A DNA stretch of 62,117 bases from an uncultured bacterium (GTDB taxonomy: Bacteria; Verrucomicrobiota; Lentisphaeria; Victivallales; UBA1829). The stretch is from the NCBI GenBank assembly GCA_949290385.1, contig CASERY010000077.1, positions 1 to 62,117 on the forward strand, in the 5' to 3' direction. How positions within the stretch are numbered: the stretch's first letter is position 1; each line of letters opens with the position of its first letter. Positions 2,778 through 60,189 of this stretch are shown piece after piece. Position numbers and translations under genes: made by a program. The notes under the pieces are model-generated. The model saw only the letters and a program-made list of their open reading frames with translations. It searched no databases and had not been told where the DNA came from.

Positions 2778-5081
2778 ATGAAGCAGAAGTTTAAAGTCGC
2801 TCTGGCGGGGAATCCGAATTGTGGGAAAACCTGTATTTTCAATGCCTTGACAGGCGCACGGCAGCATGTGGGAAATTACCCGGGTGTAACTGTGGAAAGC
2901 AAGACAGGGTCCTTTCTGCTCAACGGCATGGAAATTGAGTTGATCGACCTTCCGGGAGTTTATTCTCTTTCATCCTCTTCGCCTGAAGAGGACGTGGCGT
3001 TTCAGGAACTGACCCGCCCTGGAATTGATCTGATTTTGAACGTGGTTGATTCGACAATTCCCCAGAGGAGCCTTTACTTGACGACTCAGCTTGCAGAATT
3101 GCATATTCCCATGCTCCTTGCCTTCAATATGAGTGATGACGCCTAGAAGAAGGGGTTGAAGTTTAATATCCCCAAACTGGAGACATATTTCGGTTCGCCT
3201 ATTGTTCAAACTGTGGGATGCCGTGCTTCCGGTGTTCAGAATCTGCTTCGGAAACTGGCGGAAACTTTGACCAGACTGGATGAACATGGATCTCCCATGC
3301 TTTCCTATGGAAAGGATATTGATGATGCCATTGCCGAGGTGGTCCGGAGTATTGACTGTCTGAATGTGGAAAAATACAAGCATATTCCGGCCAGATTTTT
3401 TGCCATAAAGCTGCTGGAGCATGATACTGCAGTTATGCGCCTAAGTGAATTCAAGCCTGCTATGGATGAGGCGGAGAAACAGATCCGCCATTTATGGGAC
3501 AAACATGCGATTGAAGCAGATACATTTATGGCAGATAAACGTTATGCCATGCTTGCAGGCGCATGCCGGGATGCCATTACCACGACGGCGGAAAGGCGTC
3601 GTGAGATTTCCGATAAAATAGACACCGTTCTTACAGACCGTTTTCTGGGGTTGCCGCTGTTTCTTGTAATTATTTATATTACATTCTGGTTCACTTTTAC
3701 TTGTGCAGATCCTTTTATGGGATATATTGAGAACGCTTTCGCGTGGCTGTCTGAGCTTGTCAAGGGAATCTGGCCTGAGACGATTTTCCCGTTTTTGCGT
3801 TCGCTGGTGACTGATGGTATTATCAGTGGAGTCGGTGGGGTTCTGGTATTCCTACCGAATATTTTGTTCCTGTTTTTTGCCATTGCCATCCTGGAGGATT
3901 CCGGGTATATGGCAAGAGCCGCATTCGTGATGGATGGCATTATGCGTCGATTTGGACTTCAGGGTAGATCCTTTGTACCGCTTGTTCTGGGATTCGGCTG
4001 TACAGTCCCTGCAATTATGGCTACAAGAACGATTGAATCGGAAAAGGACAGGGCAACAACGATTATGATTCTTCCTTTGATGAGTTGCAGTGCCCGTCTA
4101 CCGATTTATGCATTGATTATTCCTGCCTTCTTCCCGGAAAAATATCAAGCCTTTACCATGTGGCTGATCTACATCATTGGCGTGGCGGTTGCTTTGATTG
4201 CCGCAAGAATTATGAAGAAGACCCTGTTCAAAGGAGATGGAGAAGTCTACCTGATGGAACTGCCTCCGTACCGCTTGCCGACTTTGAAAAGTCTGATGCT
4301 GCACATGTGGGATCGGGGAAGAATGTATGTACAGAAGGCTGGAACGATTATTCTGGTTGCCAGTATTATCCTGTATATCTGCAATACATTCCCGCAGAAA
4401 AAGGAGTTTTCCAGAAATTATGATGAGCTTGAAAGTCAGATTCTGGAAACGTAGATTCTTTCAGAGGCTGACATTCAGACGCTTGAAACCAGCGGACTTC
4501 TGGATGAGGGAACTCTTGAAAATCTTCGCGGACAGCGTGTCCTTTCCGGGGAGCAGCTTGAAGCCCTTGCTGAAGAAAATCTGACCGTGGAACAGCAGAA
4601 GATTGTCAGCCGCATGCAGCATCTGGATGAGCAGCTGGCATCCCTGAAAAATGAGCAAAGAGCTGAATCCCTGGAATATACCATTTCCGGCAGAGTCGGG
4701 AAGTTTTTAGCGCCTGTTTTTCAGCCTATAGGTTTTGACTGGAAAATGACCACTGCAGGAATCGGGGCGCTGGCGGCAAAGGAGGTTTTTGTTTCTCAGC
4801 TGGGTATCCTTTATGCGGAAGGTGAAGCGGATGAGGAATCAATACCGCTTCGTCAACAGCTGATCCGGCATTATACCCCACTTCAGGGATTCTGCATGAT
4901 GCTGTTCTGTCTGCTTTCCATCCCGTGTTTTGCAACGCTTGCGATTATAAGGCGTGAACTGAACTCTTGGAAGATGATGTTTGCGGAAGCCATAGGACTT
5001 TTCCTTCTGGCTTATCTTACCACTATGATTGTGTATCAGCTTGGAAGTTTGTTCCACATAGGAACAAAACTGCTTGGATGA
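2778..5081 (+). CDS. feoB: Ferrous iron transporter FeoB (two in-frame TAG)
   Basis: A 767-residue GTP-gated inner-membrane Fe(II) permease. The N-terminal G domain shows GNPNCGKT (G1), a threonine switch in YPGVTVE, DLPGVYSL (G3) and NMSDD (G4, NxxD). The membrane domain follows, with the gate repeats FLPNILFLF and GCTVPAIMATR, and the final helices come after a long coiled-coil-like insert (about residues 540-640). TAG at 3144-3146 is residue 123, in the linker after G4 where E. coli has Glu. TAG at 4452-4454 is residue 559, in the variable insert. Without readthrough the gene would be three fragments; with it, length and domain order are normal. ATG with weak spacing follows feoA by 4 bases. 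It ends at TGA. Confidence 0.93.
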
Positions 5082-34688: not shown

Positions 34689-34717
34689 TTTGATTCATGG
34701 AGTCATCGCAGGATAAA

Positions 34718-35725
34718 ATGGATGTGCACTGGATGCGCAAGGCCTTGCGTCTTGCATAGAAAGGTGCAGGCACAACAAGTCCGAACCCTATGGTCGGAGC
34801 TGTCATAGTGAAAGACGGACATGTGATTGGAGAGGGGTGGCATGTTCGTCCTGGAGAGCCCCACGCAGAAATAAATGCTATTCGTTCATTGCAGCGGGAG
34901 TCTGATGCAAAAGGTTCAACAATTTATGTGACTCTGGAGCCATGTTCAAGCTGGGGGCGGACGCCTCCGTGCTGCGATGCGTTGATCCGTTGCGGTTTTT
35001 CCCGTGTCGTCATTGGCAGTATTGATCCGAACCCGAATCATCAGGGCAGGGGAATTGATCTTTTGAGATCACATGGCATGGAGGTCGTTTCAGGCGTGGA
35101 GAAGGATGCCTGTGACAAGCTGAACAGGGCTTTTTTCAAATGGATTCAGACCCGTCGGCCTTATGTACTTTTAAAGCTGGCCGAGACTCTGGATGGAAAG
35201 ATCGCCTGTGAAAATGGTGCGTCTCAATGGATTACGTCGGAAAAAGCCAGACAGCGGGTGCAGCATCTTCGGAGGCTGTAGGATGTTGTGATGGCGGGGG
35301 CTTCGACTTTCCGAAAAGATCATCCGCGATTTACTGTACGCGGAAAAGATGGACGTGTTTTGAAGACACCACGCAGAATAATTGCAAGCCGTCACCCTGA
35401 AACCCTTGAGTTCCCGGATGATTCCTGGGAAGGAGTCTGCCTTCGGACAAAACAGGACTGGGATGATTTTTTAATCCGTCTGGGTTCAGAGCAGGTCATG
35501 CGTATCCTGTTGGAAGGCGGCGGCGAGCTTGCGGCATCCGCATTGCGTGCAGATGCCGTTGATGAAGTGGAATTTCATATCGCTCCTGAAATCCTGGGGG
35601 GAAGGAACAGCCGCCCTTCAGTGGGAGGTGAAAATCCGGAATCGCTTGCCGAAGCAATTCCTCTGCGGGACATGGAAATCCGAAAACTCGGATGCGATCT
35701 GATGGTTCGCGGACGCATTCACTGA
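34718..35725 (+). CDS. ribD: RibD: diaminohydroxyphosphoribosylaminopyrimidine deaminase / reductase (two in-frame TAG)
   Basis: A 335-residue bifunctional enzyme. Deaminase half: TSPNPMVGAVIV, the zinc ligands in GEPHAEINAI and EPCSSWGRTPPCCDAL. Reductase half: RPYVLLKLAETLDGKIA, SQWITSEKAR, LLEGGGELAASAL. TAG at 34757-34759 (residue 14) lies in the LA-X-KG motif, where E. coli has Gln; TAG at 35279-35281 (residue 188) lies in LRRL-X-DVVMAG, where E. coli has Ser. ATG 34718 has AGGA close upstream; an ATG at 34697 is possible. It ends at TGA. Confidence 0.93.
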
Positions 35726-36594: not shown

Positions 36595-37392
36595 ATGATG
36601 CAGTCTTTTCTTGATAAGGATTTCGGATTGGCTCTGGGAACACTGGGGATGGGATTGAATGGAGTTCGTGACTACGCAGATTTCCCGGTTTTTTCCGCAA
36701 TTGAATTTCCTTTGGAGATGTTCACGACAGACCATGCTGAACTTTTTCGCCGGATTCCGCACGATAAATACCATGAAGTCCACTGCAGCGGCATTATGGA
36801 CCGGGACCTTTCCAGAACGATTGCATTTGCGCCCAGAAATCTTCAAAATGACTTTGCAGATCAGGCGGTTCAGATTCTGGACCAGATCTGTGCAGGCAAC
36901 TGTTTTACTGCCACGCTTGAATGTGATATGGATCAGATTTTCAATGATTCTGAAGCCAGAGATTCCCTGATCTATCTGTTGCACCGCATGACGCCTGCAC
37001 TTTTAAAAAATAAGATGACTTTGCTGCTGCCTTTCCGATTGCCGACTTATTCTCCGGAACGGCCGGGCATGATGAATAAATTTTTAAGGGACAGTATGAT
37101 TCCAGGTCTTAAGCTTCGTCTGGATATACATCCATTTGATATTGAACCTGGAACAACACCGGATGAATTAATTGGCCCGTTATTCCGGGAAGTGCGTTCG
37201 ATCATGTTTCATTACGATGCGGACTGCGGAAGCCGGATTTCAGCAAAAATTATCCGAAGTTGGGCGGAGATTTTTGATGTCTATGATTTTTCCGGACCGT
37301 TTTTCCTGGCCCCCTATTCACAGCGGCACAGAATGGTTTATCCTCAGGCTGAATCTTTTGCAAAAATTGTTTCGGACTTGCGAAACGGGTAA
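36595..37392 (+). CDS. Unknown protein, possibly TIM-barrel-like
   Basis: A 265-residue soluble protein with AGGA 9 bases before ATG 36595. I do not recognise a family. The pattern of short hydrophobic strands alternating with helices (FALGTLGMGLNG-like start, VFSAIEFPLEM, ALLKNKMTLLLPFRLP, GLKLRLDIHPFDIEPG, SIMFHYDADCG) suggests a barrel similar to sugar-phosphate isomerase/epimerases. It sits between ribE and pilT. No TAG; TAA end. Confidence 0.75.
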   Translation: MMQSFLDKDFGLALGTLGMGLNGVRDYADFPVFSAIEFPLEMFTTDHAELFRRIPHDKYHEVHCSGIMDRDLSRTIAFAPRNLQNDFADQAVQILDQICAGNCFTATLECDMDQIFNDSEARDSLIYLLHRMTPALLKNKMTLLLPFRLPTYSPERPGMMNKFLRDSMIPGLKLRLDIHPFDIEPGTTPDELIGPLFREVRSIMFHYDADCGSRISAKIIRSWAEIFDVYDFSGPFFLAPYSQRHRMVYPQAESFAKIVSDLRNG

Positions 37393-37457
37393 TGACATGC
37401 TATTATAGGCTTGTTGCACTCTCAAAACATTACTTGAAAGAAGGGAATTTGACAGGA

Positions 37458-38555
37458 ATGAGCGAAACACAGGATATCTTTTATGAGGTTCTTCAAAAGG
37501 GAATTGAAGAAAATGCTTCGGACTGGCACATCAAGGAGAATACCCCGATAGCATTACGTATTGCCGGTGAAATGGTACAGCTGGATGTTACGGCAGATAA
37601 GAATTTCATCAAGGAAATCATAGGGGAGATGATAAGTCCTTCTCAGATGGAAAAATATCTGGAAATCGGAGATATGGATGTTTCGTATTAGCCTAAAGGG
37701 ATCGGGCGTTTTCGTGTGAATATTCATCGTCAGCGCGGAATGGATTCCATTTCCATGCGTTATGTGAAAAGCAAGATCCGGACAACGCAGGAACTTTCTC
37801 TTCCACCGGTGCTTGATAAAATTGCATCATTCCCACGGGGAATTGTGATCGTGACAGGGACAACAGGTTCCGGAAAATCCACTACACTGGCGGCCATGCT
37901 GAATTATATGAATCAGCATTATTCGTATCACGTAGTGACAATTGAGGATCCTATTGAGTATGAATTTGAAGACAATATGTGCCTGTTTGAACAGCGGGAA
38001 GTTGGACTTGACACCTGCAGTTTCCAAAGCGCACTGGTTCATGTGCTGCGTCAGGACCCGGATATTATTATGATTGGAGAAATGCGCGACAGAGCATCTT
38101 TTGAAGCTGCGCTTACTGCGTCCGATACAGGCCACCTGGTGTTGACAACACTGCATGCGACAAATGCTTCTCAGGTTATTACCCGAATTCTGGATTTTTA
38201 TCCGAAAGCGGAACAGGAATCTGTCCGTGAGTCTCTGGCGTTGAATCTGCGGGCGACGATTGCCCAGCGTCTTCTTCCAAAGGCTTTTGGTTCTGAAATG
38301 GTTCCTGTGAATGAAATCATGATCAATACCCCGGTGGTGACGAACCTCCTCCAGAAAGACCGTTTGGAACTTCTGTAGAAGGCTATTGACAATGGTTAGG
38401 ATGATGGAATGCTGACTTTCAATGCATCCATTCTTCAGCGTATCAATAAAGGAGAGATTACAGAGGAAGTCGGACTGGAGGCTTCGGATGAGCCTGAAGC
38501 TTTGAAGATGAACTTGAAAGGCATCTTTATTTCCCAGGATACTTTGATCAACTGA
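37458..38555 (+). CDS. pilT: PilT-type retraction ATPase (three in-frame TAG)
   Basis: A 365-residue secretion ATPase. N-terminal domain SDWHIKENTPIALRIAGE, then IGRFRVNIHRQRG, Walker A VTGTTGSGKSTTLAAM, the Asp box VTIEDPIEYEFED, Walker B DPDIIMIGEMRD, the His box TGHLVLTTLHATNA and the arginine-rich DFYPKAEQESVRESLALNLRATIAQRLLP. TAG at residue 78 (37689) stands between DVSY and the FRVN motif, residue 307 (38376) and residue 314 (38397) lie in the C-terminal helices just before DGMLTFN. PilT retracts type IV pili; no pilB/pilC neighbours are visible, so it may serve pili encoded elsewhere. TGA end. Confidence 0.93.
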
Positions 38556-39313: not shown

Positions 39314-41209
39314 ATGCATCAATTCAGAACGCATACCTGCGGAGCATTGCGGAAATGCAATGTGGGCGAAACGGTACGAATCTCCGGCTGGATCAACAGC
39401 GTGCGTGACCATGGCGGAGTGATTTTTATTGATCTGCGCGACCATTACGGGAAAACACAGGTTGTGATCAACCCGAAAATGCATTTTTATCAGGAACTGG
39501 AACGCTGGAGAGTGGAGACGGTTGTCTGCTTTACCGGCAAAGTGGTTGCCAGAACTCCGGAGACCGTGAATCCTAAACTCGCAACGGGAGAAATTGAGGT
39601 AGTTGCAGAGGATATGACAGTTCTCGGAGAGACAGAGCAGATCCCATTTCAGATTGTTAAGGATGAGGATGCTCCGGAAGCTCTCCGCTTGAAGTACCGT
39701 TTTCTGGATCTCAGAAGAGAAGAGCTTCATAATAAGATTATTCTCCGCTCGAAAATCATCGAGGAAATCCGGCGGGAAATGTGGGCAATGGGATTTAATG
39801 AGTTCCAGACTCCCATCCTGACAAGCAGCTCTCCGGAAGGTGCCCGGGATTATCTGGTGCCATCCCGTCTTCATACTGGAAAATTTTATGCGCTTCCTCA
39901 GAGTCCGCAGCAGTTTAAGCAGCTGCTGATGGTTGCGGGTTTCGACAAATATTTTCAGATCGCGCCCTGTTTCCGGGATGAGGATGCACGTGCAGACCGT
40001 TCACCAGGAGAGTTCTATCAGCTGGATATTGAAATGAGTTTTGCTACGCAGGAAGATGTTTTCAAAGTCTGTGAAGATCTTCTGAGCAAAGTTTTCAGCA
40101 AGTTTACCACAAAAAAGGTTACACCGGCACCTTTCCCGAGAATTCCATTCCGTGAAGCAATGGAAAAGTACGGAAGCGATAAACCGGATCTGCGCAATCC
40201 ACTGTTTATGGTGGATTTATCGGAACTTTTCCGGAAATCCGGATTCAAGGCATTTGCATCCACGGTGGAAAAGGGCGGGGTTGTTAAAGGCATGCGTGTG
40301 CCGGGAATTGTAGGTGTTCAGCCCCGTACCTTCTATGATAAGATGGAGGCGTTTGCCAAGGAGAACGGAGCCAAGGGACTTGGCTACATAATGTGGACCC
40401 GGGAAGGTGAAATCAAGGGGCCGATTGCTAAATTCATGAAGCCTGAGGAGCTGACAGAGCTTGAGAAACAGGCAAATATTGAAAAGGGTGATGCCCTCTT
40501 CTTTATGTGCGATACCCGGGAAAAAGCCAATGAACTGGGCGGAAAGGTCCGTGCAGCGTTTGGTGAGAAATTGAACCTGATTAACCCGGATGAATTTAAT
40601 TTCTGCTGGATTGTGGATTTCCCGTTCTTTGAGAAGGATGAGGAAACTGGCAAGATTATCTTCTCACACAATCCGTTCTCAATGCCTCAGGGCGGAATGG
40701 ATGCTCTGCTGAACAAGGATCCATTGGATATTGTGGCTTATCAGTATGACATTGTGTGCAACGGGATTGAACTGAGCTCTGGAGCCGTGCGTAATCATCA
40801 GCCCGAACTTATGTACAAGGCTTTTGAAATGACCGGATACAGTCGTGAAACAGTGGATGAAAAATTTGGCGGCATGATTAATGCCTTTAAACTTGGTGCG
40901 CCTCCGCATGCCGGTGTGGCTCCCGGAATTGACCGCATGGTAATGCTGCTGACAGACTCGCCAAATATTCGTGAAGTTATTGCGTTCCCGTTCAACCAGC
41001 AGGCTCAGGACTTGATGCAAAATGCCCCCAGCACGATTGACATGAAACAGTTGCGTGATCTGAGAATTGTACCGATTCCTCATGAATTGAAATTTGAAGA
41101 GACTTTCAAAAAGATTCTTGCGGAAGCGGAAAAAGTCAAAGCTGCAGAAGCAGCTGCTGCACAGGCTGCGGGAGCGGCGGCCGGTGGAAGTGTTTCCGAG
41201 AAGAAGTAA
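39314..41209 (+). CDS. aspS: Aspartyl-tRNA synthetase (bacterial type, Ala-rich tail)
   Basis: A 631-residue class II synthetase. The OB anticodon domain (residues 1-110) holds [23 protein letters not shown]. The catalytic core has [28 protein letters not shown], motif 2 [11 protein letters not shown], and motif 3 [11 protein letters not shown]; the bacterial GAD insertion spans about 300-420. The tail (610-631) is [20 protein letters not shown] followed by GSVSEKK, an unusual low-complexity extension beyond the family end. No TAG in 631 codons. ATG with GAAGGAAAG upstream; TAA end. Confidence 0.97.
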
Positions 41210-41243
41210 GATGTTTTGAATCGCGGAGAATTTGAGATTTGTC

Positions 41244-41867
41244 ATGGGATTGATCAGCCGTTATCGAACAACGAATTCCAAAGTCAGCGGACGCTAGGCC
41301 GCGACAGGATTGTTTTTGTTTGCCTAGACGGCTGTGATCCTGACTGTGCTTATTTGGAGAGCAGTTGTATGGATTTCAGATTACTCGGAGCGTTTTACAA
41401 AATATGATAAAATGATTGAGCAGGCCGGGTTGCGCAACGGCGTAGATCCCTGTCTGCTCAAAGCTGTTATTTGGCGGGAGAGCCGTTTCGATCGAACTGC
41501 AATTGGTTCCAAAGGTGAAGTCGGTCTGATGCAGGTTATGCCGAAATATGCCGGCTTGGAATGGGCTCGCTAGCATGGAATGGAAATTCCTTCCAGAGGG
41601 GCTCTGATGGACCCGCGATTTAATATAGAAGTGGGGTCCTGGTACCTGGGAAGAGCTTTGAAAAGATGGCGTAATTACAATGACTGTGTGGCGCTTGCGC
41701 TCTGCGAGTACAATGCAGGACAGGTCCGGGCAGAGGCCTGGAAGCCGTTGACGCCGGAGGGGTCTGTCAGGGAACGGATTGATATTGCGTCTACGCTGGG
41801 CTATGTAAACGACATACTGGAGAAATATCGGGATTATCAGCAGCAGGAGCTGCAGAATAAGAAATAA
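41244..41867 (+). CDS. Membrane-anchored lytic transglycosylase, SLT family (three in-frame TAG)
   Basis: A 207-residue protein. A short basic head leads into one transmembrane helix (residues about 20-42, LFLFA-X-TAVILTVLIWRAVVW) and then an SLT goose-lysozyme domain: VDPCLLKAVIWRESRFD with the catalytic Glu, GSKGEVGLMQVMP, and ALALCEYNAGQVRAEAW. It cleaves peptidoglycan glycan strands. TAG at residue 18 (41295), residue 28 (41325, within the membrane helix) and residue 110 (41571, WAR-X-HG). ATG 41244 is the first upstream start, reached only through the first two TAG codons. TAA end. Confidence 0.85.
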
Positions 41868-41915
41868 GAGAACTTTATAAAAAATGCCTTTTTGTGAAAA
41901 CTGAGGAGTTCATTG

Positions 41916-42707
41916 ATGAAAAGAAGCTTTCCTACTCTATGGACATTTTCGGCTATCCTGAGCTTATAGGTTTTATTTTTACTCCCTTATGATGCGGAGG
42001 CGCGTTCTGCCCGGAAGCAGTATTCGTCGCCTGACGTTATCCGATGGGACTTTGAGAACAGTCGACTGGAGGATGGTATTCCTTCCGGCTGGGAATACAA
42101 AGGAAAAATGGGAACTCCGGATGTGACTTACGCTCTTGTTAAGGATGCTGATACCGGAGAACAGGTTTTAAAGATTACTTCCAAAAAAGCAACGGGAGTT
42201 CTTCTGAGAGAACTGGCTGTAAATTTTGAGGAGTATCCATGGATTCGATGGCGCTGGAAAGCCGGGCTTTTGCCCTCTGGAGCAGATGCGCGGGTAAAAT
42301 CCAAGGATGACCAGGGAATTGCTCTGTATATTGGATACGGGACATTCCGACAGAAGAGTATTTCCTATACATGGGAAACGATGACGCCGAAAAATGCAAC
42401 GGGAAAATCTGTCTACAATGGACTTGTAACCGTGTTCTGGACATGCCTGAGAAATCAGGATGATCCGAAGGATACCTGGGTCGTTGAACAGCGCAATGTG
42501 CTGGAGGATCTGAAAAAATATCTGGGGAAATATCCCTCTGATCTTGCATTAAGTATTTCCTGCAACAGTCAGTATACCGGAACCAACGCTGTGGTTTATC
42601 TGGATTACATTGAGTTCAGAAAGGCTCCCCTGCAGGAAGATGAGAAAGACGTAGCGGAAAAGACCGCAGAGGAATCATCTGCTTCTGAGTCGGAGGCTGG
42701 GAAATAA
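41916..42707 (+). CDS. Secreted DUF3047-like protein (TAG in signal peptide)
   Basis: A 263-residue exported protein. The signal peptide is MKRSFPTLWTFSAILSL-X-VLFLLP and ends near AEA; TAG 41967-41969 (residue 18) lies in the middle of its hydrophobic core. The mature part has VIRWDFE, PSGWEYKG, YPWIRWRWKAGLLPSGA, DDQGIALYIGYG and VYLDYIEFRKAP, matching the beta-sandwich DUF3047 family of unknown function, which may bind carbohydrate. An acidic tail closes it. GAGG lies upstream of the ATG. TAA end. Confidence 0.8.
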
Positions 42708-43135: not shown

Positions 43136-44173
43136 ATGAGAAGACAAATGAATATCTGGAAAGCCGTTTTTTGCGGATAGGCATTTTTGTGCCTGTTTAC
43201 TGCGGGCTGCCGCCGGGAGGAGACAAAGCCGCCTATGGATTAGAATGAACAGGGGAAAGCCGCTTCCGCAGAATATCAGAAGACCCGGATTCCAGATTAT
43301 AACTCTCCGGCAAATGCTTTTCTGCTGTTGAAAGATCTGAATTTGCCGGAAGAGGAGTCCCGATATTTGATAGCAGCTTGTCTTCAGGGATTGTGGGACC
43401 AGAAAAGAGTGGATGCTTATTTGATGCAGGTGCGTCCGGTGATATCTTCTGTGAAGGATGTTGTCGCTAAAGAATATTATTTGAGTCCAAGAGTTGCATC
43501 CCCGGATGAGGATATGGATTATCTGACGTCTGTCAGAGCATATGTGGCTGCACTGCTGATATCCAGTGAGAACTATCTGAGAAACGGGAAAAACCGGGAA
43601 GAAGGGCTGTTGCGCTTAAAACATGTGCTTACGCTTGTAAAAATGATGAATGAATATCCGTCCTGCTTCCTGGAACTGCTTGTTGTTCAGGCAAACATCG
43701 GACGGGTTTCTGATATGTTGGTACATCTGAGAGATATGAAAATCATCTCAGAAGAAGAGTTTTTATCCTTGGTTCAGGAAGCCGGCGATATGCAGCTGAG
43801 TCCAAAAGGCCTTTATTCTGCTTTGATTGGAGAAGGTCGTATGTTGACTTTCCTTGCGGATGGATTGCGTAACGGGACCATCCGGGAGCGGGATTTGCAG
43901 GAAATGCTTGGAGTTAATGACCCGCAACTATATTACAGCCTAAAATTTGTGAATACCCAGAAAATTTCAAGCGTGCTGGATTAGGAATTTGCCAGCATTT
44001 TGAAAGCTTACATGACAGGACGCAGCTATATACAGGATCTTTCCCTTTATCAGAACTTGACTCCATCTGATGTTCTTTTCCTTCAGTATTTCCTGACTCC
44101 TGCCCAGAAGCTTTTGCCTAAAATAAAAAGTTCTTATCAGAAGACGGTATTTATGCAGACTGGAAAAAAATAA
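43136..44173 (+). CDS. Lipoprotein of unknown function (three in-frame TAG)
   Basis: A 345-residue predicted lipoprotein. The signal is KAVFCG-X-AFLCLFTAGC with the lipobox TAGC (Cys about residue 25). TAG 43178-43180 (residue 15) is within the hydrophobic core, TAG 43241-43243 (36) just after the lipobox and TAG 43982-43984 (283) near the end. The body is alpha-helical (LLRLKHVLTLVKMMNEY, LLVVQANIGRVSDMLVHL), suggesting a TPR-like or helical-repeat fold. GGAGG lies 8-12 bases before ATG 43136. TAA end. No function assigned. Confidence 0.78.
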
Positions 44174-57548: not shown

Positions 57549-57810
57549 TTGAGTAGCCTCTGTATCTTTGTTTATTTCACAGGGTAGGGGTGGATTTAAA
57601 ACAGCTTTATGTTCCTTGACAGTACAAAAGCAATTTGAATTAATATGCTGCCGGATCTATTTTTGTCAAGCATTTAATTCTTTTTCAGAAAAAATTTGAA
57701 AGAAAACGGTGAATATTTCCAGGTTTCTTTTCTGCACTGCTGGAAAATTAAGATTCCCGCCGTTATTTTATGAAAAACGTTCTCAAGGCGTAACTGGAAT
57801 TGAAAGAATC

Positions 57811-60189
57811 ATGGCAACAGGTGAAAGTGCTGTAACATTTGAAATGAAGGGCAGTATTTCTGCTCCTGGCTTTATGCCTCTCATCTGCCGTCTTGCTTCT
57901 GAAGCCGGACTGGGTGGATGGATCCGGAGCGGGCACAAATCTGTGCTGCTGCATTTGGAAGGGGATGAAGAGGAGATCCGTCATTTTATTTTGCATCTTC
58001 CAAGCAGTCTGTATCCGGCGTTTATGCTTCGGGAATTGAATATTGTGCGGCATACAGGGCTGGAATGTCTGGACAATCTGTATGGGCGAAAGACATTCAG
58101 AATCCTGGCAGAGCACAAGGAATTTCCTACGATCCGTCCGGATTATACCCTGTGTCCGGATTGTATTCGGGAAATGTATGATCCCTCTTCTCGCAGATAC
58201 TGTTTCCCGTTCTGGGGGTGTCGCCGCTGCGGGCCCTCCTATGGAGCCTTGAGCAGAATGCCGTTCATCCGGAGAAATACGTATCTGGCGGCTTTTCCTC
58301 CCTGTCATAAATGTGAAGAGGAAAGGTTGGACAGGAAAGACTTTCATCATTATAAATCTGAACTTCTCAGCTGCCGGGACTGTGGCCCATCGTTGTATCT
58401 GACAGATCGGAATGGAAATTTGCTGGATGACCAAAATGCCATTTGTTCTGCCAGGACGGCCCTTGCAAAAGGTGAAATTGTTGTAGTTCAGTCTCTTTTC
58501 GGCGGATTTTACGTGCTGGCGGATGCCACAAACAGAAAAGCTCTTGAGACATTGCGCCAGAGGAGAAAGTTGCCGTTGCGCCCTGTTTCCGTAATTGCCA
58601 ACAATATGGATGCTGTACGACAGTATTGTTCCGTAAGTGCGGAAGAAGAGGCTCTTCTGACTTCTCCGGCTTCTCCGGTTGTTCTTCTTCATCTGCGCGA
58701 GGATGCTGAGCCTGGTCCGCTTAAAGTGGATTCCCTGATTCCGGACGGCCCCAGAATTATCGGCATGGAGCTGCCTCCTACGGCACTGATTCACTTGCTG
58801 TTTCATCATCATAGTGCGGAAAGTGTGGAGGATTGTGCCATGTGCGATCCTGAATTTCTGGCAGTCATTACAGACAACTGGGATGGGAGAAGCAGAAATC
58901 CGGATATTGATGTGCTGATGAAAAACCTGAGTCCTGTAGCAGATAAATTCCTTTGTCATGATTTGCGGATCGGACTGGACTGCAGTTCATCGGTGGCTGC
59001 TGTCCGTGATGGACGAGCACGGATTCTGCGGAGATCCCGCGGATACACTCCATTGCCTATTCATGTGAAACGGCCGCTAAGCCGTATTGTGGCTTCTTTC
59101 GGAGGGGATGTTAATTCTGTCATTGCTTTAGGGTATGGCCGGCAGATTGTACCTTCTCAGCATATCGGGGATTTGCGCTGTACGGAAGCGACGGAGCGGC
59201 AGATTGAAATTTTGAACAGACTGTCCATGCTGTTCGACTGTGTTCCGGAAGTGGTTGCCTGTGATATGAATCCGATGCTGTATTCCAGCAGAGCGGCACA
59301 GGCTTTTGCCGAGCAGAGGGGGCTTCCATTAATTACGGTGGAAACACATCATGCTCATGCTCTTGCGTGCATGGCAGAGTCTGGATTGAAACATTGCCTT
59401 GCACTGATTCTTACAAACGGTTCGCCGGGGCCGGATGGAACATACTGGGGAGCTGAGCTTTTAGATGTCCAGTTGGAATCTTTCAGCCGTCTGGCGACTT
59501 TTTCGCCGGTGGGCATGCCGTCCGGCAACCTTTTCCCGAAGACGGCTCTGCATTTAGCTGAACGCATGAAGGAAGCCGGCTTCAATCCTACCAGGAGCTG
59601 GTATACAGAATTTCATCTTTCGGAGAAGGACATAGCGTATCTGGAATCCTCGGAAAAAAGCGAATCTGTAAGAAGCCATGCTGCGGGCAGCGTGGCGGAT
59701 TCTTTTGCTGCGGCGTTAAGAATTGCTCCGGAAAAGGTGACGTATGCCGGACAGTGTCTTTCAAGGCTTTCAGGATAGGCGTGGGACTTTTGCAAACAGG
59801 GAAAACCACTGGATCCAGGTATTGAAAAAGCTGTGGGATATGCTGTACGTAAAGAGGATGGTATTTTACTGATCGACTGGAAGCCCATGTTTTGTGCTCT
59901 GGCTGATTCATGTATCAACCGTCGGGATTCTATGCAGGCTTTATGTTGGGCCTTTTTCCGGTCTATGGCAAGAGCTGGCGTGGAAATGGCTGTTTATGGA
60001 GCCAGACGCAGCAGATGCAGGGACATTGTCTTGAGCGGAGGACTATTCAAAAATGAGATGCTGTATCAGAGCATTGCAGATGCTTTAAGAGATGCTGGAT
60101 TCAGAGTTTTTTCTCCTTGTGAAGTACCTGTGGATGATGCCGGCCTTTGTGTCGGGCAGGCATACTATGCTGGCGGGATTCCTGCCTGA
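57811..60189 (+). CDS. hypF: HypF-like carbamoyltransferase with a degenerate acylphosphatase domain (one in-frame TAG)
   Basis: A 792-residue protein of the [NiFe]-hydrogenase maturation factor HypF family. N-terminal acylphosphatase-like domain (10-90), two zinc-finger pairs (CPDCIREM, CRRCGPSY, CHKCEEE, CRDCGPS), a YrdC-like domain with LRQRRKLPLRP, then a Kae1-like domain (VACDMNPMLYSS, THHAHALACMAE, LSGGLFKNEML). In the acylphosphatase part GFMP replaces GFRP and WIRSG replaces WVRN, losing both catalytic residues. TAG 59776-59778 is residue 656 in the Kae1-like half, where E. coli has Leu. No other hyp genes are nearby. TGA end. Confidence 0.88.

Follow-up and report, generated by a model that had tools for sequence, protein, structure and literature searches.

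A Lentisphaeria-like bacterium that seems to read TAG as a sense codon, most likely for alanine

A TAG triplet within the predicted export signal of a DUF3047 protein from an uncultured Lentisphaeria-like bacterium is very probably read through because, in this genome, TAG seems to be used as an ordinary amino acid codon, most likely for alanine. That TAG is a sense codon here is close to certain, whereas its assignment to alanine is probable and rests on statistical support, so that, on present evidence, we consider this to be a likely new variant of the bacterial genetic code.

In-frame TAG codons in the DUF3047 gene and across the genome

The window, that is, the entire stretch of DNA analyzed here (62,117 nucleotides), is one contig (CASERY010000077.1, hereafter C77) of a 2.68 Mb metagenome-assembled genome (MAG; GCA_949290385.1) that consists of 168 contigs and is 78.5% complete. 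The aspartyl-tRNA synthetase encoded in the window is 74-75% identical to those of the nearest Victivallales and Lentisphaeria MAGs, on which basis the organism is taken to be Lentisphaeria-like, and the gene order AspRS-SLT-DUF3047 is conserved in 10 of the 35 loci inspected (L076-L110 of the 80 loci fetched; L numbers denote the DNA loci and stretches compared). The first-pass annotation of this sequence noted that, in the DUF3047-like protein, a TAG is residue 18 of a clean signal peptide, and this observation is confirmed: the frame contains exactly one TAG and terminates at TAA, and the N-terminus reads MKRSFPTLWTFSAILSL-X-VLFLLPYDAEA, as given in that annotation (Table 1). Residues 67-232 match the DUF3047 family (PF11249) with a score of 81.5 bits (gathering cut-off 27; E-value 7.4e-23). 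The first 29 residues have the form of a Sec signal peptide, with a positively charged n-region, a hydrophobic core and AEA before the proposed cleavage site, in agreement with the AXA rule, as judged from sequence and hydropathy only.

Table 1. Features of the window and additional TAG-containing genes of the same genome
Position	Strand	Feature	In-frame TAG	Basis
41903..41908	+	GAGGAG, Shine-Dalgarno-like sequence 7 nt before the ATG		sequence
41916..42707	+	DUF3047 protein gene, 263 codons with TAG as sense, stop TAA (42705-42707)	codon 18	sequence, Pfam match
41916..42002	+	Probable Sec signal peptide (residues 1-29): K/R n-region, core FSAILSLXVLFLL, AEA before the proposed cleavage	codon 18	sequence and hydropathy
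41967..41969	+	In-frame TAG, proposed to be read as alanine	codon 18	sequence, alignment columns
42108..42707	+	Table-11 frame opened by the ATG at codon 65 of the DUF3047 gene		sequence
41232..41867	+	Upstream neighbor, SLT transglycosylase-domain gene, codons counted from a mechanically chosen TTG start	codons 22, 32 (in a membrane-like segment) and 114	
39314..41209	+	Aspartyl-tRNA synthetase	none	
43136..44173	+	Downstream lipoprotein-like gene, no Pfam match	codons 15 (signal core, before LFTAGC), 36 and 283	
2778..5081	+	FeoB gene	codons 123 and 559	
34697..35725	+	RibD gene	codons 21 and 195	
37392..38555	+	PilT-like gene	codons 100, 329 and 336	
57709..60189	+	HypF gene	codon 690	
L045, 1054-2151		RF2 gene	one	
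Contig C158 of the same genome, 30066-31367		alaS gene	one	

A translation start downstream of the TAG, one of the two conditions that had been set beforehand as refuting the first-pass interpretation, is unlikely. Between the TAG and Met65, there is no ATG, GTG or TTG, only ATC, CTG and ATT, and in 42 of the 45 non-own match rows, the similarity to relatives starts at or before query residue 55, so that a start at Met65 would drop conserved sequence. Furthermore, a Shine-Dalgarno-like sequence precedes the upstream ATG, and several DUF3047 relatives carry hydrophobic N-termini, as judged by eye.

The TAG in the DUF3047 gene is one of many. In the window alone, a greedy gene set includes 52 genes, some of them low-scoring, of which 25 contain 44 in-frame TAGs in total. 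When 0.40 Mb of the genome was scored with each of the stop codons in turn read as sense, the summed coding score increased from 23,086 to 24,330 bits for TAG but dropped to 22,019 and 19,621 bits for TAA and TGA, respectively. In 0.55 Mb (a fifth of the MAG), 127 of the 367 predicted genes (genes under 90 aa or 15 bits were left out) hold 210 TAGs in 137,396 codons, or about 1.5 per 1000 codons, on 25 of 27 contigs; the two contigs without TAG contain 7 genes and 1 gene. The TAG density in C77 (2.52 per 1000 codons) is higher than in most of the other contigs examined. TAG codons are in excess near gene ends (23 in the last 20 codons against 11.2 expected), so that a few might still be stops or lie in relaxed tails. 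Among 209 TAG codons from the window and the own stretches L186-L205 and L326-L340, the next base is A in 98 cases (47%) and T in 12 (6%), compared to 29% and 11% after other codons ending in G (chi-square p 1.5e-7); because TTG and AGG also show 43-44% A, this bias may be partly general, although better reading or poorer release at UAG-A is possible.

The relatives of this bacterium do not share this pattern. In loci of relatives, 145,940 aligned codons include 0 TAG, 1 TAA and 10 TGA, and in loci from named contigs, many of them from distant phyla, 72,011 codons include 3 TAG, 3 TAA and 6 TGA. An alaS match was found in 123 of the 137 genomes of the order (14 had no match), and the genome analyzed here is the only one with a stop inside the matched stretch, which covers about the first 430 profile positions; likewise, it is the only one of 61 genomes with a stop inside the PCRF match. 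Single stops do occur in isolated matches from other genomes (designated by G numbers). In the DUF3047 search, 5 of the 45 non-own rows report one stop (2 TAA, 2 TGA and 1 TAG, the latter in G038). In the RND search, single rows of other genomes show 1 TAG (G049), 1 TGA (G047) and 2 TAA (G016), compared to 6, 1 and 3 TAGs in three own copies. In the FeoB search, the best match has no stop inside in the 35 other genomes with a hit, except for one TAG in G036, whereas two own copies show 2 and 1. The four relatives sampled use TAG as the stop of 2-12% of the ORFs of 200 aa or more.

Release factors and tRNAs

A single PCRF-domain gene was found in this genome, and the SPF motif, which is diagnostic of RF2, identifies its product as RF2; RF1 is missing from the bin. 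Of the 60 relatives, 53 have two PCRF genes, six have one, and one (G001) has one gene in two pieces, so that incompleteness could also account for the missing RF1. Among the 46 tRNA matches detected at E 0.001 in this 78%-complete bin, none has the anticodon CUA (the cut one, at positions 1-64 of contig C154, reads TTC by eye); one more match, at E 9.65, did not pass the cut-off. A search of viral contigs for an Ala-like tRNA with CUA yielded one contig, L361 (IMGVR_UViG_3300045996_002400), with a tRNA-like gene at 4146-4218 that has an odd anticodon loop and for which ARAGORN reports only a two-base anticodon; given that this contig shows no clear TAG use, it was dropped. No PylS was found over the cut-off in this genome (20.2 bits against 178) or in any of the 100 genomes searched, including this one. 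The RF2 and alaS genes each contain one in-frame TAG, so that production of the proposed decoding system would itself require UAG to be read.

The amino acid encoded by UAG

To identify the amino acid, we aligned the proteins of this bacterium, with X at TAG, with the DNA of relatives and asked which residue best explains the aligned columns; rows under 35% identity and columns with gaps nearby or under 35% local identity were excluded, as was one duplicate own stretch (L337). With 31 sites in 22 genes, Ala ranks first, with an empirical score of 8.1 against -5.1 for Gln, and a BLOSUM62 score of 13.0 against 3.4 for Ser and -0.4 for Gln; Ala wins 1779 and 1923 of 2000 gene bootstraps (89-96%), respectively. 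The strictest filter (26 sites) gives 1764 and 1898, and the loosest (47 sites) gives 1324 and 1735 (66-87%), with Gln taking 648 and 179. However, 19 of the 31 sites rest on one or two relatives. In a control with BLOSUM62, each of the 61 sense codons subsampled to 27 sites was assigned correctly in 95-100% of 100 draws, but the control codons sit at better conserved sites than TAG (own Ala codons align to Ala at 63%, TAG at 43%), so that the control is easier than the test. The Ala share at TAG sites is 0.431, compared to 0.043 at codons that do not mean Ala (0 of 5000 draws as high). Ala is the commonest residue at 13 of the 31 sites (with ties broken arbitrarily) and appears at 21, whereas 10 sites show no Ala in any relative, and Gln is enriched as well (0.140 against 0.014). 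Because GCN to TAG requires two base changes and CAG to TAG only one, near-neighbor mutation can be inferred to explain the Gln share better than the Ala excess. Ala stays first when the six-TAG RND gene is removed (25 sites) or when nine columns from PDB alignments are added. The PDB columns inspected, read by eye, are mostly variable: those for RibD, PilT and HypF do not show Ala as the main residue, the RND columns did not enter the sensitivity test, and for the Uup-like protein, the TAG lay outside the aligned part.

Of 185 TAG sites (those within 25 codons of the gene end were left out), 11, including the signal peptide site, lie in strongly hydrophobic surroundings, compared to rates of 0.4-1.3% for E, R, K and Q and 5.1% for Ala; the binomial P is 0.34 under the Ala rate, 0.044 for Ser, 3.6e-5 for Gln and 8e-6 for Lys. 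Four further N-terminal hydrophobic segments carry TAG, in the genes at 41232 and 43136 of the window, L192:10368 and L193:7613. A first test based on neighbor composition preferred Gln (12.2) over Ala (-13.7), but it was trained and tested on the same sites and is affected by the base after TAG; a repeat with held-out genes and positions +-1 removed put Ala first by only 0.1, with a control accuracy of 0.42, too weak to count.

The first-pass annotation further proposed that a charged or strongly polar residue at this position would impair export and thus constrains the amino acid, an interpretation that is partly supported. When X was replaced by each of the 20 residues and scored with ad hoc hydropathy measures on two approximate scales, the segment remained among the better N-termini throughout: 3-6% of 244 own N-termini score as well with Ala, and 11-17% with Gln or Lys. 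Thus, hydrophobic or small residues give a better core than polar ones, but Gln and Lys, although worse, are not excluded, and one signal peptide cannot fix the residue. The site agrees with Ala but would not by itself choose it, and the genome-wide evidence from alignment columns and hydrophobic surroundings does better. The few relatives that can be aligned at this very site show Ala in 2 of 2 under the strict filter, and A 3, S 3, V 2, C 1 of 9 under the loose one.

Interpretation, alternatives and known code variants

The most plausible explanation, which we consider probable, is that UAG is a rare sense codon in this bacterium and means alanine, that RF1 appears to be lost, with RF2 ending translation at UAA and UGA, and that UAG would be read by a tRNA with anticodon CUA and alanine identity. 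Alanyl-tRNA synthetase recognizes the acceptor stem (G3:U70) rather than the anticodon, so that such a tRNA could come from a tRNA-Ala copy by at least two anticodon changes, or from another tRNA one change away from CUA that gained G3:U70. In this view, the codon supplies Ala18 of an ordinary Sec signal peptide (...SAILSL-A-VLFLLPYDAEA), and the rest of the protein is exported. Of these propositions, the sense reading of TAG and its spread are shown by the present analysis and alanine is supported statistically, whereas the tRNA, the loss of RF1 and the export of the protein are inferred.

Several alternatives appear unlikely. Glutamine, the meaning of UAG in amber-recoded phages and several protists, is the least improbable of these, being second by the empirical table, enriched at TAG sites, preferred by the first neighbor test and the winner of 219 (empirical) and 74 (BLOSUM62) of 2000 gene bootstraps; however, own Gln codons align to Gln at 47% and to Ala at 6%, compared to 14% and 43% at TAG sites, hydrophobic surroundings are 4-5 times too frequent for Gln, and a Gln share is also expected from CAG to TAG mutation. 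Serine or another small residue, read by a tRNA whose synthetase also ignores the anticodon, as SerRS does, is second by BLOSUM62 and is not clearly excluded by the hydrophobic surroundings, but the Ser share at TAG sites (0.037) is no higher than in the pool (0.027, p 0.28), whereas own Ser codons align to Ser at 48%. Pyrrolysine is very unlikely: although UAG is the pyrrolysine codon and the MAG is incomplete, no PylS was detected, TAGs are spread over a third of the genes analyzed, and Ala is the main aligned residue. Also very unlikely are pseudogenes, assembly error or contamination by a recoded phage, to which a MAG with some TAGs clustered near gene ends could point, given that TAG alone is affected, on 25 of 27 contigs, and inside otherwise intact frames such as RF2, alaS and FeoB. 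A start of the DUF3047 gene at codon 65 is very unlikely for the reasons given above.

If this reading is correct, a bacterial chromosome has made UAG an ordinary alanine codon after loss of RF1, in the only member of its genus among the genomes sampled, within an order whose other sampled genomes keep the standard code; this is probable on the present evidence. Pyrrolysine aside, the bacterial code changes named in the papers examined concern UGA and some arginine codons, and searches of open-access literature, which are not proof of absence, found no paper whose title or opening of the abstract reports a bacterial chromosome with UAG as a standard amino acid. A bacterium of this kind would show that the RF1 side of termination can be given up naturally, as in engineered RF1-free E. 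coli, and would let the order of events (rarer UAG stops, RF1 loss, new tRNA) be tested against close relatives with the standard code. It also means that annotation under table 11 truncates about a third of the genes in the part analyzed.

Among known systems, bacterial changes of one stop codon to sense include UGA to Gly in Absconditabacteria/Gracilibacteria and UGA to Trp in Mycoplasmatales and others (PMC8629427, PMC13092985); here, the codon is UAG, and the factor not found is RF1. According to PMC8629427 (2021), in bacteria, all changes known before it reassign UGA, to which that study adds arginine-codon changes. Amber-recoded phages (PMC10879173) likewise have in-frame UAG as sense, for Gln, but these are phage genomes infecting hosts with the standard code, whereas in the present case, chromosomal housekeeping genes are involved, and Ala is favored over Gln. 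In the pyrrolysine-using Deltaproteobacteria (PMC8318568, where the mentions of Victivallales concern a reconstructed bin), UAG is also sense, but this use requires PylS and tRNA-Pyl and serves methylamine methyltransferases, whereas here no PylS was found and TAG is widespread. UAG as alanine is established for the mitochondria of the green algae Hydrodictyaceae and Neochloris (PMC6821328), in which a CUA tRNA closest to tRNA-Ala is encoded and the release factor is presumed unable to recognize UAG; that is a mitochondrial genome in which the CUA tRNA has been seen, whereas here it is a 2.7 Mb bacterial MAG in which the corresponding tRNA is inferred.
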